Below, one piece after another: positions 81 through 11,633 of a DNA stretch of 64,000 bases; position 1 is the stretch's first letter, and each line of letters opens with the position of its first letter. The translations under genes and the position numbers were made by a program. Source of the DNA: Pelagibacterales bacterium SAG-MED49 (lineage in GTDB: Bacteria > Pseudomonadota > Alphaproteobacteria > Pelagibacterales > Pelagibacteraceae); contig JACWEQ010000002.1 of assembly GCA_014653365.1 (NCBI GenBank), positions 1-64,000 of the forward strand, in the 5' to 3' direction. A model generated the notes under the pieces. The model saw only the letters and a list, made by a program, of their open reading frames with translations, was not told the origin of the DNA and did no database searches.

Positions 81-1062
81 ATCTTTCGAGATCAATAAAA
101 TAAATTTTGATCAAAATAAATTAGTTTTATTTTATGGTAAAAATGAAGGCTTTAAAAATGAAGTCACAAATAACCTAATAAAAGATAAAGACAAAATTAT
201 AAAATATGAAGAAAAAGAAGTTCTAGAAAATATAAATGATTTTATTGAAAGTATATTGTCCAAATCTCTTTTTGAAAACGAAAAAATAATTATTATTAAA
301 AGAGCTACTGATAAAATATTAAAAATTATTGATGAGATTAATTCTAAAAATATTGAAGATATCAAAATTATTTTAAATGCAGATAATTTAGAAAAAAAGT
401 CAAAATTGAGATCTTTATTTGAGAAAGATAAAAAATATATTTGTGTACCATTTTATCCAGATACAGACCAAACACTTTCAAAATTAACTTATAATTTTTT
501 AAAAAAAAAAAATATATTAATTTCTCCATCAAATATTAATTTAGTAGTAAATAAATGTAATGGAGATAGAGAAATTTTACTAAATGAACTTAATAAAATC
601 CAATATTTTAGTAAAAATGGGAAAAAAATTACTGCAGAAAATTTAACAAAATTAACCAATTTAATTGAAAATCATGGCATTTCAGAACTTATAGATAACT
701 GCCTAGCAAAAAATAAAAAAAAAATTGTAAATATTTTAAATGAAAACAATTTCAATAATGAAGACTGCATTTTAATTACTAGAACTTTTTTAAATAAGGC
801 AAAAAAAATACTAAGACTTTCAAGTGAGTTTCGAAATAATAAAAATATAGATTTAACTATATCATCTGCAAAACCACCTATTTTTTGGAAGGATAAAGAG
901 ATTGTAAAGCAACAAATTTATAAATGGACACCAGAGAATATTAAAAAATTAATATATAAACTGAATGAAATAGAGCTTTTAATTAAGAAAAATATTAATA
1001 ATGCAATTAATTTAATTACAGATTTTATTTTAGATCAAGTTACTTCAAGCACTAATAATTAG
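70..1062 (+). CDS. holA: DNA polymerase III delta subunit
   Basis: The 330-residue product is the clamp-loader delta subunit, which opens the beta sliding clamp and loads it on primed DNA as part of the DNA polymerase III holoenzyme. Length and layout fit HolA: an N-terminal AAA-like domain with a degenerate nucleotide site (LFYGKNEGFKNEV near residue 20), a middle domain (ISPSNINLVVNKCNGDREIL near 150-170, the usual 'leu-x-asn/gly-asp' region of HolA) and a helical C-terminal collar domain. It starts inside the end of the upstream gene and runs 11 bases into parB on the opposite strand, so the two stop codons cross. Lysine- and asparagine-rich as expected from the AT bias. Identification is by family pattern, not by a single motif. 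Confidence 0.85.
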   Translation: MIIKSFEINKINFDQNKLVLFYGKNEGFKNEVTNNLIKDKDKIIKYEEKEVLENINDFIESILSKSLFENEKIIIIKRATDKILKIIDEINSKNIEDIKIILNADNLEKKSKLRSLFEKDKKYICVPFYPDTDQTLSKLTYNFLKKKNILISPSNINLVVNKCNGDREILLNELNKIQYFSKNGKKITAENLTKLTNLIENHGISELIDNCLAKNKKKIVNILNENNFNNEDCILITRTFLNKAKKILRLSSEFRNNKNIDLTISSAKPPIFWKDKEIVKQQIYKWTPENIKKLIYKLNEIELLIKKNINNAINLITDFILDQVTSSTNN

Positions 1063-1900
1063 ATTTAATTATATCTATAATTTTATTTAATTGATCTAGG
1101 TCCTTATACTCAAAAGAAATTTTACCTTTATTGTTTTTTTTGTTTTTGATTTCAACATTTAAGCCAATTTTATTGGATATAGATGTTTCAAGGTCTATTA
1201 TATTAGCAAATTTTTTATTTCTAGATTTTTGTTTATAATTTTTAAATGTGTTTACTAGCCTTTCTGCCTGTCTTACTGAAAGTTTTTTATTAACAATTTT
1301 ATTAGCAACAAAAGATGCATTTTCTAATCCTACCAAAATTTTAGCATGTCCAGCACTTAACTTTTGGCTTTCTATTAATTTAATTATTGTATCAGGTAAA
1401 GTAAGTAACCTTAAAGTATTTGCTATATGACTTCTACTCTTTCCAATAAACTTTGAAACTTTTTCTCTATCATAAGCAAATTCATCAATTAAACGTCTAT
1501 AACCTTGCGCTTCTTCTAACGGATTTAAATCAAGTCTTTGTACATTTTCAACAATAGCAAATTCTAAAGATTTTAAATCATCAACCTCAACTTTAACAAC
1601 AGGAACTTTATGAAGACCGGCTCTTTGCGCTGCAAGCCACCTTCTCTCTCCTGCAATTATTTCAAACTTAAATTTATCATCATTAGATTTTCTAACAATA
1701 ATCGGTTGTAAAATACCTCTCTCTTTAATTGAGTTTGTAAGATCGTTTAAATTTTCTTCATCAAAAATTTTTCTAGGTTGATACTTATTTGGAATAAGAT
1801 CACTAATAGATAATTGATTTTTTGGGGTTTCGACTTTCGTTTCTCCTATCAAGGAAGACAAGCCTCTACCCAATCCTTTTTTTATTTTATTTGAATCCAT
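1052..1900 (-). CDS. parB: Chromosome partitioning protein ParB
   Basis: ParB is the CTP-dependent clamp that loads at parS and spreads along DNA to organise and segregate the origin region. The 282-residue protein has the typical N-terminal KGLGRGLSSLIG segment that contacts ParA (residues about 8-18), the Srx/CTP-binding domain with GERR at 84-87, the ENVQR-LNPLEEA box, a helix-turn-helix around KSRSHIANTLRLLTLP and a C-terminal dimerisation region. Its ATG overlaps the parA stop by one base, so parA-parB is an operon. A perfect parS lies 1.4 kb away inside rsmG, which supports a working ParABS system here. Confidence 0.95.
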   Translation of the reverse strand: MDSNKIKKGLGRGLSSLIGETKVETPKNQLSISDLIPNKYQPRKIFDEENLNDLTNSIKERGILQPIIVRKSNDDKFKFEIIAGERRWLAAQRAGLHKVPVVKVEVDDLKSLEFAIVENVQRLDLNPLEEAQGYRRLIDEFAYDREKVSKFIGKSRSHIANTLRLLTLPDTIIKLIESQKLSAGHAKILVGLENASFVANKIVNKKLSVRQAERLVNTFKNYKQKSRNKKFANIIDLETSISNKIGLNVEIKNKKNNKGKISFEYKDLDQLNKIIDIIKSNY

Positions 1901-2694
1901 TATGCGGCACTCCCTATGGTTGCCTCTTGATTTATAAATTCATCTGTAAAACTAAAATATGATTTACTACCAGGACATGATTTGTCATAAATTAAAACTG
2001 GCATCCCATGCGAAGGCGCTTCGGACAATCTTACATTCCTAGGGATCACTGTTGAATAAACTTTTTCATTAAAATAATCTCTTGCTTCTTTCTCTACTTG
2101 AGATGATAGCTTGTTTCTCTTATCGTACATCGTCAAAAGTATCCCTCTAATCATTAATTCTGGATTTAAGCTAACTTTTATTCTTTCAATTGTTTTCATA
2201 AGCTGAGTTAAACCTTCTAGAGCAAAAAATTCTGTCTGAAGAGGAACCACAAGTGAGTGTGAGGACACTAATGCCATGACTGTTAGTAAGCTTAGTGAGG
2301 GTGGGCAGTCAATTAATATATAATCATATAACCCTCTAGAATTGTTTAAATACGCGGTTAATTTAAGCTTAAGTATGAATGCTCTATTTGCGTCTTCAGC
2401 TGTTTCAACTTCTAGACCTGACAAATCTACATTTGAAGTTATTAAATCTAAATTTTCAAATTGAGTTTTTTTAATTACCTCGAAAAATTCTTTTGTTCCA
2501 TTCAATACACCATAAATAGTATCAGTAGAATTTTCCATATTAGATAATCCTAGTCCTGTCGTTGCATTTCCTTGAGGATCCAAGTCTATAACTAAGATTT
2601 TTTTATTTTGTTGAGACAAACCTGCTGCAAGATTGATAACAGTTGTTGTTTTTCCAACTCCACCCTTTTGATTTATAATAGAAATAATTTGCAT
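1900..2694 (-). CDS. parA: Chromosome partitioning ATPase ParA
   Basis: ParA is the nucleoid-bound ATPase that moves ParB-parS complexes and so separates sister origins. The 264-residue sequence opens with the deviant Walker A box KGGVGKTTT (residues 10-18), followed by VIDLDPQGNATTGLG (Walker A' region) and LIDCPPSLSLLTVMAL (Walker B region), all diagnostic of the MinD/ParA superfamily Soj branch. The gene follows rsmG by only 9 bases and shares its stop with the parB start, giving the common order mnmG-rsmG-parA-parB that is found next to the origin in many bacteria. Confidence 0.97.
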   Translation of the reverse strand: MQIISIINQKGGVGKTTTVINLAAGLSQQNKKILVIDLDPQGNATTGLGLSNMENSTDTIYGVLNGTKEFFEVIKKTQFENLDLITSNVDLSGLEVETAEDANRAFILKLKLTAYLNNSRGLYDYILIDCPPSLSLLTVMALVSSHSLVVPLQTEFFALEGLTQLMKTIERIKVSLNPELMIRGILLTMYDKRNKLSSQVEKEARDYFNEKVYSTVIPRNVRLSEAPSHGMPVLIYDKSCPGSKSYFSFTDEFINQEATIGSAA

Positions 2695-2703
2695 TTAGTT
2701 TTT

Positions 2704-3357
2704 TTAATTTTTTTTAATTTTTTTTTTAATTTTATTAATATTTAACAAAAATGAATCTTCATTAGTTAAACTTTTTTTTTCTACATACTCTAGATCCCAT
2801 TCCTTTAAAGAATTTTCAAAAATTTTTTTTCCATTCTTTCCCATAAAAAAAATTAAATTTTTATAAATTGAAAAATTTTCATAAACTAAATCCAAAACTA
2901 TTGGCATTGGTTTAAATGCTCTTGACATTATGCTTCCAGTTTTTAATTTTTTTAAATCAAAAACATTTTCTTGAAATATTTCTGTTTTTAATTTTAATTT
3001 TTTTGATACCTCTCTTAAAAAAGCGCTTTTATGGTGACTTTTCTCATATAAATGAATTTTTAAGTTTTTTTTCATATTTTTTAACATAATTGCTATGATA
3101 ATTCCTGGCATACCACCTCCAGTGCCTAAATCAGTTACTATATTACTATTTAAATCAACAAAATCAATAATTTGTGCTGAATCTATTATATGGCGCTCTC
3201 TTATTACCTCATTTTTGGCATTTTCTCGGCTTATTATATTAATTTCTTTATTTTTCTCAATTATCATTGATATAAATAATTCAAAGTCTAAATATGTTTC
3301 ACGTGAAACATTTAAACTATTAAGTCTTGAATATGAATTTAAAATTTCTTGTTCCAT
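2704..3357 (-). CDS. rsmG: 16S rRNA (guanine527-N7)-methyltransferase RsmG
   Basis: RsmG methylates G527 of 16S rRNA with S-adenosylmethionine. The 217-residue protein has the Rossmann motif DLGTGGGMPGI (about residues 91-101) and the N-terminal NVSRETY segment usual in the family. The stretch coding for VSRET also contains a complete 16-base parS palindrome (3295-3310), so the gene doubles as a ParB loading site. It overlaps the mnmG stop by one base and belongs to the mnmG-rsmG-parA-parB unit. The C-terminus is strongly lysine-rich (KIKKKIKKN), probably reflecting base composition. Confidence 0.93.
   Translation of the reverse strand: MEQEILNSYSRLNSLNVSRETYLDFELFISMIIEKNKEINIISRENAKNEVIRERHIIDSAQIIDFVDLNSNIVTDLGTGGGMPGIIIAIMLKNMKKNLKIHLYEKSHHKSAFLREVSKKLKLKTEIFQENVFDLKKLKTGSIMSRAFKPMPIVLDLVYENFSIYKNLIFFMGKNGKKIFENSLKEWDLEYVEKKSLTNEDSFLLNINKIKKKIKKN
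3295..3310. promoter_or_regulatory. parS centromere site
   Basis: A perfect 16-base palindrome TGTTTCACGTGAAACA lies inside the rsmG coding sequence. It matches the universal bacterial parS consensus in every position. It lies about 2.9 kb... measured by coordinates, 600 bases upstream of parA start and 7.3 kb from the proposed origin. Known ParB proteins load at this sequence. No second copy was noticed in the window. Confidence 0.95.
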
Positions 3358-8505: not shown

Positions 8506-9532
8506 AATTTAAACATGGGCATTTTTTAAAATTATTCGGGCAACGAACCTTGGGGGGATAAAGTTTATTATTAAAATTGTATTCTTCTTTTTTAATAATT
8601 AATTCGGACATCGCTTTAATAAAATTTTCATTGGTGGCAAGAGCGGGAACTCTTGTATAATTCTTACATCCATTTTTATCAGCCAATTCTTTATATTCTA
8701 TATCTAACTCAACTAAGGTTTCAGAGTGCTCAGAAACAAAAGCAATAGGCACTAGAACAATATGTTTTTCTAATTTTGAATTTTCAACAATTACATCTTC
8801 TGTTGATGGACCAATCCACTTTAATGGTCCGACACGACTTTGATAACTTAAAATCCAATCTAAATTATTGATATTTAATGACTTAACAATTTTATTAACT
8901 GATTGTTCTACTTGCCATTGATACGGATCACCATTTTTTATATTTTTTTCAGGCAGTCCGTGAGCAGAAAAAATTAACTTAAAGTTTTCTAAATTATTAA
9001 TTTTTTTTATTATTTCATTTTTGTGTGCTAAAACAAAGTTGTCATCTGTTGGATAGCAACAAATTGTACTTGTCTTTGCTTTAAAGTTATTTTTTTTACA
9101 AATATCTTTCCATTCTTTAATGGAAGATCCTGAGGTCGCTGCAGAATATTGTGGATAAAGGGGCATTAAAATAACCTCATCTGGATTATATTTTTTAACA
9201 TCATTAATTACAGTTTCTGCTCTTGGGTGCCAGCACCTCATAACAATAAACGATTTATATTCTGAATTATCATCATCATTATTAAGTTTTATCTCAAGGG
9301 CTTTTGATTGTTCTTCCGTTAATTGTAAAATTGGTGATGAGCCACCAAGCTCCTGATAAATTTTTTTAGCAGTTGGAGCTCTTCTTTTAGAAATTAATTT
9401 AGCAAGTGGAAACCTTAAAAAATAAGGTAAATTAAGTATTGCGGGATCATTAAATAGATTAAACAAAAAAGGCTCTACACTATCTAAACTATCAGGCCCG
9501 CCTAAATTAAAAAGGATTATAGCTTTTTTCAT
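8498..9532 (-). CDS. hemH: Ferrochelatase
   Basis: HemH inserts ferrous iron into protoporphyrin IX, the last step of protohaem synthesis. The 344-residue protein starts with the typical LFNLGGPDSLDSVEPFLFNLF, has CWHPRAE, the catalytic histidine in FSAHGLPEKNI and the acidic EHSETLVELDIEY motif. The C-terminal tail holds three cysteines (CPNNFKKCPC); some ferrochelatases bind a [2Fe-2S] cluster through C-terminal plus other cysteines, but whether this one does cannot be told from the sequence. It shares its first base with the hemE stop and overlaps hemJ by 8 bases. Confidence 0.96.
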   Translation of the reverse strand: MKKAIILFNLGGPDSLDSVEPFLFNLFNDPAILNLPYFLRFPLAKLISKRRAPTAKKIYQELGGSSPILQLTEEQSKALEIKLNNDDDNSEYKSFIVMRCWHPRAETVINDVKKYNPDEVILMPLYPQYSAATSGSSIKEWKDICKKNNFKAKTSTICCYPTDDNFVLAHKNEIIKKINNLENFKLIFSAHGLPEKNIKNGDPYQWQVEQSVNKIVKSLNINNLDWILSYQSRVGPLKWIGPSTEDVIVENSKLEKHIVLVPIAFVSEHSETLVELDIEYKELADKNGCKNYTRVPALATNENFIKAMSELIIKKEEYNFNNKLYPPKVRCPNNFKKCPCLNYE

Positions 9533-10533
9533 TAATAATTTTTCACTGTGCTTACTAAAAACTCAACCATTTCTGGATTTGTCTCGGGTAAAATACCATG
9601 CCCTAAATTAAAAATATAAGGATGATCTTTAAAAATATCCAAGTATTTTATTGCTTCTTTTTTTAACGTTTCTTTGTCTGTAAGTAAAATTTTCGGGTCT
9701 AATCCACCTTGAATTGGAATTTGTATGTCTTTTAACGCATTTCTGGGATCTATATTATAGTCAATGCTTACCGCGTCAGGTTTTACAATCTCACAGTATT
9801 TTTTGTAATTTTTAATTTCTCTTGGAAAGCAAATAACAGGAATTTTTAAAGATTTTACAAAGTTAACCAAACTAACTGTTGGTGAATAAATATAATATGG
9901 TAAATCTTTTTCCCCCAGTAGTCCTGCCCAACTGTCAAAGATTTGTATTACATTTGCACCATTTTCAATTTGATTTTTAATATGTATTTTTAGAAATTTT
10001 TCTAAAACTAATAAGATATTTTTAATTAACTCTTTATCTTTAAAGAAATCTTGTTTTAAATTTTTTTTAGGGGATTGTTGATTGATCATATAAACTAACA
10101 ATGTCCAGGGAGCACCAACAAATCCTATGGTATTTTTATTCTTCATAAGATTATCGGTACTTACTTTTTTAATTGCTTTGTAAATTGGATAAATCTTTTC
10201 CACAAAAGCTGTCTCATCTAATGTGGCCATCTCACGAATATTAATCTCGCCAAGTATCGGTCCAAAGCCTTTTTGAAATTCTACTTTTTGATTTAGGCCA
10301 TATGGCAGCATTAAAATATCTGAAAATATTACCGCTGCGTCTAAATCAAATCTTTTTAAAGGTTGTAAGGTGATTTCTGTTGATAAAATTTTATTTAAAC
10401 ATAATTTTATAAAATTAGGATTTAATTTTCTAATTTCTCTAAATTCAGGCAAATATCTACCCGCTTGTCTCATGATCCAAATCGGGTTAATTTTAGTATT
10501 TTTATTTATAATTACTTGATGAATAGGTGTCAT
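9532..10533 (-). CDS. hemE: Uroporphyrinogen decarboxylase
   Basis: HemE removes four carboxyl groups from uroporphyrinogen III to give coproporphyrinogen III. The 333-residue protein carries the substrate-binding N-terminal WIMRQAGRYLPEFRE, the FSDILMLPYGL loop with the catalytic aspartate, FVGAPWTLLVYM and the GHGILPETNPE motif near the C-terminus. It is the first gene of the hemE-hemH-hemJ unit and faces the AT-rich gap proposed as the replication origin. In Caulobacter and Rickettsia the same gene flanks the origin. Confidence 0.97.
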   Translation of the reverse strand: MTPIHQVIINKNTKINPIWIMRQAGRYLPEFREIRKLNPNFIKLCLNKILSTEITLQPLKRFDLDAAVIFSDILMLPYGLNQKVEFQKGFGPILGEINIREMATLDETAFVEKIYPIYKAIKKVSTDNLMKNKNTIGFVGAPWTLLVYMINQQSPKKNLKQDFFKDKELIKNILLVLEKFLKIHIKNQIENGANVIQIFDSWAGLLGEKDLPYYIYSPTVSLVNFVKSLKIPVICFPREIKNYKKYCEIVKPDAVSIDYNIDPRNALKDIQIPIQGGLDPKILLTDKETLKKEAIKYLDIFKDHPYIFNLGHGILPETNPEMVEFLVSTVKNY

Positions 10534-10805
10534 ATTAAAATAATATATATAGTTATTGTATTAGTATTATGTAATGTGAATAACGATGATAAGTTTTTAT
10601 TAACATTTTATTAACAGCTTAATAACATTTTTGAATTAATAAAATTGTTTAAATTGGCTCTTTTTAATCTTTTATTATATAAAATGTATAATTTTTTACA
10701 TTTGTTTATTAATGTTAACAAAACCCTTATTTTACATCAAGAATTAATCAATATTTAATTTGAGTAATTTAATTAAAATAATACAAATTTATTAACAATT
10801 TATTC
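10534..10805. other. Candidate chromosome replication origin (oriC) between hemE and ppsR
   Basis: This is the only gap of its kind in the left half of the window: 272 bases between divergent hemE and ppsR, with 36 G or C in 10561-10800 (15%). It contains TTATTAACA at 10597-10605, 10608-10616 and 10789-10797 and the variant TTAATAACA at 10619-10627; the first three boxes are spaced exactly 11 bases. TTATTAACA differs from the DnaA box TTATCCACA at two positions. In Caulobacter the origin lies between hemE and the homologue of Rickettsia RP001, which is the same family as ppsR. Nine of ten genes on the left run leftward; 14 of 18 genes to 21.9 kb on the right run rightward. Confidence 0.75.
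10597..10627 (+). repeat. Three 9-mer DnaA-box-like iterons, 11-base spacing
   Basis: TTATTAACA occurs at 10597 and 10608 and TTAATAACA at 10619, each start exactly 11 bases after the previous one, roughly one helical turn. A further exact copy lies at 10789-10797 just before ppsR. The arrangement resembles an array of DnaA-binding sites. TTAA-rich sequence is common in such AT-rich DNA, so the phase of the repeats is better evidence than the matches alone. Confidence 0.6.
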
Positions 10806-11633
10806 ATGAGTAATAAATATCAAATTTATCTTATTTCAGATTCCACGGGTGAGACCTTAGATAGAATTTTTTTAGCTTTAAAAGCGCAATTTAAAAACAT
10901 TGAATATAAAGTAAATTCTTATTCTTTTACAAGAACTGAAAATCAGATTTTAAAAATTTTAGATGACGCAACAAAAAAAAAAAATTCAGTAATTCTTTAT
11001 ACAATAGTAGACAATAGTTTAGCTAAATATTTAGCCAATGTAAGTGATAAAAAAAAAATTCCTTGCTTTGGAGTGCTTGGAAATTTAATTCTAAATTTTT
11101 CTAAAATTCTTAATCAACAAGCATCTCATGAGCCAAGCGGACAACATGTTCTTAATGAAGAATATTATGAGAGAATAGAAGCAATACAATTTACAATGAA
11201 TCATGATGATGGAAATTTGACAGAAGAGATTGAAAAGTCAGATATTGTTTTAATTGGGGTAAGCAGAACAAGCAAAACCCCCACCTCAATCTATCTTGCT
11301 AACAAAGGTTTTAAAACTTCAAATATTCCACTTGTAAACGAAAACTCCTTACCAAAAAAACTTAAAGACAACCCAAAATTAACCTGTGTTATTGGTTTAA
11401 ATACGGAGCCTGAAAGATTGGCTGACATAAGAAAAAATAGGATGAATTCATTAAGAGAAACTGAAAATAAAAAATATGTAAGTTTAGATAATATTAAAAA
11501 TGAAATTGTAGAAGCTAAAAAAACGTTTCAAAAATATAAGTGGCCCTCAATTGATGTCACAAGAAAATCAGTTGAAGAGACAGCTGCCTCAATAATTAAA
11601 ATACATGAAATATATTTAAATAATGTTAAATAA
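10806..11633 (+). CDS. ppsR: Pyruvate, phosphate dikinase regulatory protein (DUF299 kinase/phosphorylase)
   Basis: Members of this family are bifunctional serine/threonine kinases and Pi-dependent pyrophosphorylases that switch pyruvate phosphate dikinase or PEP synthetase on and off. The 275-residue protein has the N-terminal IYLISDSTGETLDRI, HEPSGQHVL and the P-loop-like GVSRTSKTPTSIYLANKG at about residues 151-168, all family hallmarks. The dikinase gene itself is not in the window. It is the first rightward gene after the proposed origin, as in other alphaproteobacteria, and overlaps maf by 11 bases. No clear Shine-Dalgarno precedes the ATG. Confidence 0.93.
   Translation: MSNKYQIYLISDSTGETLDRIFLALKAQFKNIEYKVNSYSFTRTENQILKILDDATKKKNSVILYTIVDNSLAKYLANVSDKKKIPCFGVLGNLILNFSKILNQQASHEPSGQHVLNEEYYERIEAIQFTMNHDDGNLTEEIEKSDIVLIGVSRTSKTPTSIYLANKGFKTSNIPLVNENSLPKKLKDNPKLTCVIGLNTEPERLADIRKNRMNSLRETENKKYVSLDNIKNEIVEAKKTFQKYKWPSIDVTRKSVEETAASIIKIHEIYLNNVK

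Follow-up and report, generated by a model that had tools for sequence, protein, structure and literature searches.

A probable replication origin with a conserved putative unwinding module, apparently free of CtrA control, between hemE and ppsR in SAR11 bacteria

Introduction

The chromosomal origins of Caulobacter crescentus (Cori) and Rickettsia are described, in the relevant passages of PMC1914354, as A+T-rich regions with DnaA boxes located between hemE and a gene of the COG1806 (ppsR) family, and COG1806/DUF299 is the gene that adjoins hemE at the Caulobacter origin. In the basal unwinding system of Bacillus subtilis and Helicobacter pylori, a DnaA box is separated by a short spacer from a series of trinucleotides with a central A. 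The search rule published for this system (PMC8287927) allows a box with up to two mismatches and a spacer of 0-16 bp, and asks for at least three trinucleotides with a central A. The gap between hemE and ppsR in SAR11 bacteria (Pelagibacteraceae) resembles the former origins in its location, base composition and DnaA boxes, and it resembles the basal unwinding system in its box, short spacer and central-A trinucleotides, with the strand and side described there.

We analysed a window of 64,000 nucleotides from Pelagibacterales bacterium SAG-MED49, which lies on contig 12 of an assembly of 1.17 Mb in 38 contigs; the closest named relatives that were found belong to the Pelagibacteraceae (SAR11). 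SAR11 bacteria rank among Earth's most abundant cells. Their replication at sea has been estimated from read depth along the chromosome, with the coverage minimum taken as the terminus (part of PMC9589681). In other work the map was placed or started at dnaA (passages of PMC2031905 and PMC12421898), or the origin was marked by hand, with no genes named in the text passages of PMC4033161. Among the matches listed in our literature search, no paper placed the SAR11 origin at hemE/ppsR; few subscription journals were covered and the DoriC tables and supplements were outside its scope, so that an earlier prediction may exist there.

Results

The hemE-ppsR gap and its surroundings

The original prediction had singled out the intergenic region at 10534-10805 as a G+C-poor gap (15%) from which genes diverge, with a parABS system about 7 kb away. 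These features were all recovered. The gap is 272 bp long with 14.3% G+C, compared with 21-37% in the 2-kb steps of the window (a comparison with the window rather than with the whole genome); like Cori, it is A+T-rich. It is bounded on the left by hemE (9532-10533, minus strand; TIGR01464, 308 bits for a cut-off of 303), which codes for uroporphyrinogen decarboxylase, and on the right by ppsR (10806-11633, plus strand), whose product passes both the PpsR-family model NF003742 and PF03618, the latter being presumably the same family as DUF299. The two genes are divergently oriented, and an Rfam scan found two tRNAs in the window and nothing in the gap. A promoter scan returned five promoter-like sites for 6.0 expected, and a terminator scan none. 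To the left lie parB (1052-1900, minus strand; TIGR00180, 192 bits for a cut-off of 58), a ParA-type ATPase gene (1900-2694, minus strand) whose matches to partition ATPase models stay under the equivalog cut-offs, and parS (3295-3310), a perfect 16-bp palindrome, TGTTTCACGTGAAACA, with no mismatch to the consensus. The parS site is 7.2 kb from the gap, and all three elements are within 7-10 kb of it. The placement between hemE and a PpsR/COG1806-family gene agrees with that of the Caulobacter and Rickettsia origins as given in passages of PMC1914354, as had been proposed.

Conservation of the gap among relatives

We collected 140 ppsR loci in two sets, of 60 (including that of the window) and 80, with some genomes present in both; two loci lacked an upstream flank. 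A divergent hemE gene is present at 261-288 bp in 135 of the remaining 138, the window included. The G+C content of 134 hemE-bordered gaps ranges from 12 to 26%; one locus with a hemE neighbour and a 275-bp gap (L161) is counted among the 135 and is absent from the alignment described below. The other three loci, from a single genus, have rho as the left neighbour and gaps of 348-353 bp, and this neighbour is 82% identical to the rho of the window (311-312 of 379-383 residues). Outside the family, we detected ppsR in 36 of the 56 further genomes sampled from the class. Its divergent neighbour is hemE in 31 of them, three of which (G210, G239 and G245) were counted on partial or split matches, and hemE is on another contig in the other five.

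Of the 134 gaps, 75 were retained for alignment, chosen so that fewer than 55% of 8-mers were in common between them. Without using any motif, we determined that the seven best conserved 15-bp windows start at positions 10571, 10558, 10602, 10782, 10614, 10585 and 10712, with a score that uses an A+T-rich background and hence favours conserved G and C. In this order, they correspond to an anchor box (B0), a trinucleotide element, the 9-mers B1/B2, B5 and B3, the stretch beside B0, and the 9-mer M, all of which are detailed below. The single best window is 10571-10585. A further conserved block, at 10651-10665, is AAAATGAAGCTTTTTT-like in close relatives.

An apparent family of DnaA-like 9-mers

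The gap contains six 9-mer sites, each close to TTATT[A/C]ACA. The anchor box B0, TTATTCACA, is on the minus strand at 10575-10583, with the identical nine letters in 41 of the 75 gaps. B1 (10597-10605), whose distance of 22 bp from B0 is the same in all 75 gaps, and B2 (10608-10616) both read TTATTAACA on the plus strand, and B3 (10619-10627, plus strand), TTAATAACA, has one mismatch to them. M (10713-10721, minus strand) reads TTGTTAACA in the window and TTATTAACA in 40 of 72 aligned gaps, and B5 (10789-10797, plus strand) is again TTATTAACA, 8 bp ahead of the ppsR start codon. Three 9-mers at exact 11-base steps had been predicted, with a further copy before ppsR. The steps are indeed exactly 11 bp, and are so in 65 of 75 gaps, and the copy at 10789 is present; the third member of the array, at 10619, is only a near-copy. 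The box at 10575-10583, the trinucleotides at 10556-10570 and the minus-strand 9-mer at 10713-10721 come in addition to what was then proposed.

Three of the eight copies of TTATTAACA in the 64 kb are inside the gap (10597, 10608 and 10789). Four or more copies of TTAWTAACA occurred in none of 2000 dinucleotide-preserving shuffles of the gap (mean 0.14), and an exact 9-mer repeated at 11 bp was seen in 2.5% of 2000 gap shuffles. At the sixth position of the six 9-mers, A or C is found in 90-100% of gaps, with both letters at every site: the proportions of C and A are 76 and 24% at B0, 15 and 82% at B1, 47 and 45% at B2 (73 gaps), 28 and 62% at B3, 14 and 76% at M, and 7 and 88% at B5. The six 9-mers look like one family. 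The DnaA-box consensus is TTWTNCACA, which TTATTCACA fits; since, in addition, either form can occupy the same place across relatives, a single protein, DnaA, is the simple reading of these sites. The interchange of A and C with TTATTCACA among relatives lends weight to the description of the repeats as DnaA-box-like, their binding being putative, and the phased 9-mers at 10597, 10608 and 10619 fit a candidate DnaA array with 11-bp steps. The RDHTT motif of DnaA contacts the box, and the host's own DnaA carries it.

The gap harbours a cluster of DnaA boxes, as do other hemE/COG1806 origins. In the window, one of its sites matches TTWTNCACA exactly, as happens in 7.6% of shuffles, and allowing a single mismatch brings the total to five (3.0% of shuffles). 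Over the 75 gaps, the mean number of exact matches is 0.84, against 0.07 after shuffling, and that of matches within one mismatch is 5.45, against 1.62. Beside B0 (10584-10592), the G at 10585 is kept in 96% of the 75 gaps and TGAT is found at 10587-10590; together they may constitute a degenerate tandem DnaA box.

A candidate DnaA-trio element at a fixed distance from the anchor box

Between hemE and B0 we identified a candidate DnaA-trio element on the plus strand at 10556-10570, with the five trinucleotides TTG TAT TAG TAT TAT in the 5'-3' direction, or TAT TAT GAT TAT GTT when read 3'-5' from the box. A T occupies every third column: positions 10556, 10559, 10562, 10565 and 10568 are T in about 95-100% of the 75 gaps (minimum 94.7%), and the column after each of them is A in 43, 93, 55, 89 and 93% of gaps, respectively. 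The next best run of a single base over five columns at fixed spacing (2-6 bp tested) reaches 0.73, and a T run of period 3 at 0.95 or above arose in none of 500 column shuffles. In the 20 codons that precede hemE in its own frame, none of the 75 gaps offers an alternative start, which shows, for this frame, that the periodicity of the trios is not an extension of hemE; 71 gaps have a stop within that distance.

The spacer between trios and anchor box (10571-10574) is 4 bp long in 75 of 75 gaps. B0 differs from TTATCCACA at one position in the window, within the two mismatches of the published rule; the number of mismatches is at most two in 59 gaps and at least three in 16. With its 4-bp spacer and four consecutive NAN trios, the window also agrees with the published spacer and trinucleotide limits. 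Among the 75 gaps, 58 combine at most two box mismatches with at least three central A out of five; at least three consecutive central-A trios starting from the box side are found in only 31, and at least three of five trios conform to [GTA]AT in 74. The anchor box, constant spacer and trinucleotides match the published DnaA-box/DnaA-trio unwinding module, with predicted strand separation. An A+T-rich stretch at 10534-10555, adjacent to the trios, is the probable DNA-unwinding element. Together with the trios it makes up the 41-bp segment of lowest stability in the gap (10533-10573) by a nearest-neighbour calculation; among the 63,960 41-bp positions in the window, only 13 have a lower value.

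In the three genomes where rho and not hemE borders the gap, the trio/box core is kept upstream of ppsR (L162, L164 and L165). It reads TTATTAGG, spacer and then TGTTTATAA in two of them, and the box is degenerate in the third (L162).

Strand composition and the position of dnaA

Raw skew in the window appeared dominated by gene strand, and fourfold-degenerate sites were therefore used. Five one-contig relatives were sampled in 20 stretches of 20 kb, and one of them (G020) also over 400 unbroken kb around ppsR. In G020 the best fit puts the switch of the fourfold A/T skew at -0.5 kb relative to the start of ppsR; when the far switch is fixed, the interval runs from -17.5 to +6 kb, and placing the switch at dnaA, at -64 kb, worsens the fit by 53 chi-square units. 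In 20-kb bins, this skew is negative in nine of nine from -200 to -20 kb, +0.010 between -20 and 0 kb, and positive in nine of ten to the right of the ppsR start. The raw cumulative G/C skew over the 400 kb has its minimum at boundary 0, and the cumulative gene strand has its own at +40 kb. The fourfold G/C switch of G020 is at +28.5 kb (interval -0.5 to +64 kb), with dnaA worse by 22.

For the other relatives, the best A/T switch, in kb, is -2 (G053) and -8 (G026), from stretches about 70 kb apart, and about +85 (G032) and +72 (G044); a coarser scan of G053 puts it at +128 kb (interval -51 to +128). The A/T fit at dnaA is equal or slightly better in G026, G032 and G044. The optimum by gene orientation is +6 kb for G020 and -132 kb for G053, and it falls at about +30 to +50 kb for G026 and G032. 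The A/T skew adds support in G053 and, weakly, in G026; overall, the signal in the four relatives other than G020 is weaker or does not decide between places, and the skew evidence comes mainly from G020. The original prediction had proposed a G/C skew minimum at the site; checked at fourfold sites in relatives, this was borne out in G020 and failed in G026, G053, G032 and G044. These four, of five SAR11 genomes sampled, have a G/C skew at fourfold sites that is either weak or opposite to the A/T skew. Inside the window the contrast between left and right is weak, and the 38-contig assembly cannot be ordered. A search with a dif consensus in 11 one-contig genomes gave 13 matches, compared with 12 for a reversed control pattern, and hence fixed no terminus.

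The gap is about 61-64 kb from dnaA, with dnaA on the hemE side, in all seven one-contig genomes sampled from the genus of the window. In three further genomes (G005, G008 and G016) dnaA is about 70-73 kb away on the ppsR side, and has thus changed place relative to ppsR.

Density of DnaA-like boxes along the genomes

As a measure of uniqueness we counted exact TTWTNMACA matches per 280 bp; a weight-matrix cluster scan, trained on these very sites, is circular, and the exact-pattern scan is the fair one, with a mixed outcome. The gap is the top cluster of the window, with four matches followed by two elsewhere, and it also ranks first in G020 (four, next three) and G044 (five, next three). In G026 its four matches tie with two other places, in G053 its three are exceeded once (four elsewhere) and equalled at three more places, and in G032, with one exact box, it is outside the top five. 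Box counts alone would not identify the origin, which is recognized by conservation and position.

Discussion

Other explanations for the gap

The 11-base phasing of the repeats could be read as a series of CtrA sites, a possibility absent from the original prediction; the gap would then be an origin of the Caulobacter type, kept silent by CtrA. A pair of TTAA half-sites separated by seven bases does give an 11-bp step, TTAACATTTTATTAAC at 10600-10615 is a perfect TTAA-N7-TTAAC, and TTAA-N7-TTAA occurs twice in perfect form in the gap, a number matched by 3.5% of shuffles; its mean over the 75 gaps is 0.49, against 0.27 after shuffling. The Caulobacter origin has five known CtrA sites, according to passages of PMC1914354. 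However, of the 75 gaps, only 8 have a perfect pattern in the array at 10600 and 3 have one at 10611, and many relatives have TTCA there instead, with the ACA ends kept. The CtrA model NF045991 exceeded its cut-off in none of 12 Pelagibacteraceae genomes, whereas a control genome passes. Four OmpR-type regulators were found in G020: one scores above the PhoB cut-off, two resemble several models without reaching a cut-off, and the last has no match at 1e-15; Pelagibacter is moreover reported, in a passage of PMC2877005, to have no ctrA ortholog. We rejected the CtrA reading on its poor conservation and on the absence of a detected CtrA ortholog, and give it next to no credence; the control by CtrA that is so characteristic of the Caulobacter origin appears to be absent. 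A protein with an OmpR-type DNA-binding domain is encoded about 19-20 kb from the candidate origin in G020 and G026 (L178 and L179), and the G020 copy matches no NCBIfam model at 1e-15.

The gap might also be nothing but the shared promoter and operator region of hemE and ppsR, with the 9-mers bound by a transcription factor and the origin elsewhere, for instance near dnaA. The divergent genes and the location of B5 just before ppsR would suit such a role, and in three of five relatives the A/T skew fails to separate the gap from dnaA. Against this, the skew of G020 rejects dnaA by the margin given above, and the regions upstream of dnaA have no box cluster in 12 loci: ten have no site, one of them with only 9 bp upstream, and two have one site. 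The trio/box core also stays with ppsR in the three rho-bordered genomes, with the one degenerate box noted above, and the trio periodicity is not accounted for by the hemE frame. A purely regulatory gap is very unlikely in our estimation.

A probable replication origin and its possible mode of action

We consider that the gap is, with high probability, the oriC of a Pelagibacteraceae (SAR11) chromosome. This reading, put forward in the original prediction, is supported by synteny, by the change in strand composition in G020 and by an alignment footprint that matches an unwinding module already described. What we observed is the synteny, the conservation of the sites and their fixed spacing, the instability calculated for the local DNA and, in one relative, the composition switch; DnaA binding, unwinding, helicase loading and fork direction are inferred. 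DnaA would bind the anchor box B0 (TTATTCACA, minus strand) and fill the phased array B1-B3 in 11-bp steps. A DnaA oligomer starting from B0 would cross the 4-bp spacer onto the trios at 10556-10570 and stretch that strand, the unstable DNA would melt toward hemE, where the helicase would be loaded, and two forks would depart in opposite directions. ParABS, 7-10 kb away, would presumably segregate the new origins.

A base-level origin candidate about 61-64 kb from dnaA provides an anchor for methods based on read depth. The small SAR11 gap also lends itself to the question of how the timing of an origin is set when CtrA is lacking.

Comparison with known origins

The gap is very probably an origin of a known kind in the expected place, and its working parts can now be assigned to individual bases. 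At 272 bp, the SAR11 gap is smaller than the Caulobacter and Rickettsia origins, which are given as longer than 400 bp. Unlike in Cori, CtrA sites are not conserved in SAR11 gaps, and the genomes searched yielded no CtrA ortholog; GANTC is present in only 2 of 75 gaps, and the main 9-mer is TTATTAACA. The IHF pattern WATCAANNNNTTR has no exact match in the gap of the window and five with one mismatch, four of which overlap 9-mers, and it is exact in 6 of 75 gaps. Compared with the basal unwinding system, where the spacer is commonly 10-13 bp, that of SAR11 is 4 bp in every gap, the trios are mostly [T/G/A]AT and G[T/A]T, and the module adjoins a 9-mer array on the opposite strand with 11-bp steps. 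The locus can be described as a Cori-type origin, apparently CtrA-free, with a conserved unwinding module. The SAR11 family may have a stripped-down Cori, a proposal that we regard as evenly poised between right and wrong: CtrA and its sites would be gone, the box would have drifted to TTATT[A/C]ACA, and control would lie in a rigid module made up of trios, 4-bp spacer, B0, 22-bp step and 11-bp array, whose trio/box core stays beside ppsR even where rho has replaced hemE.
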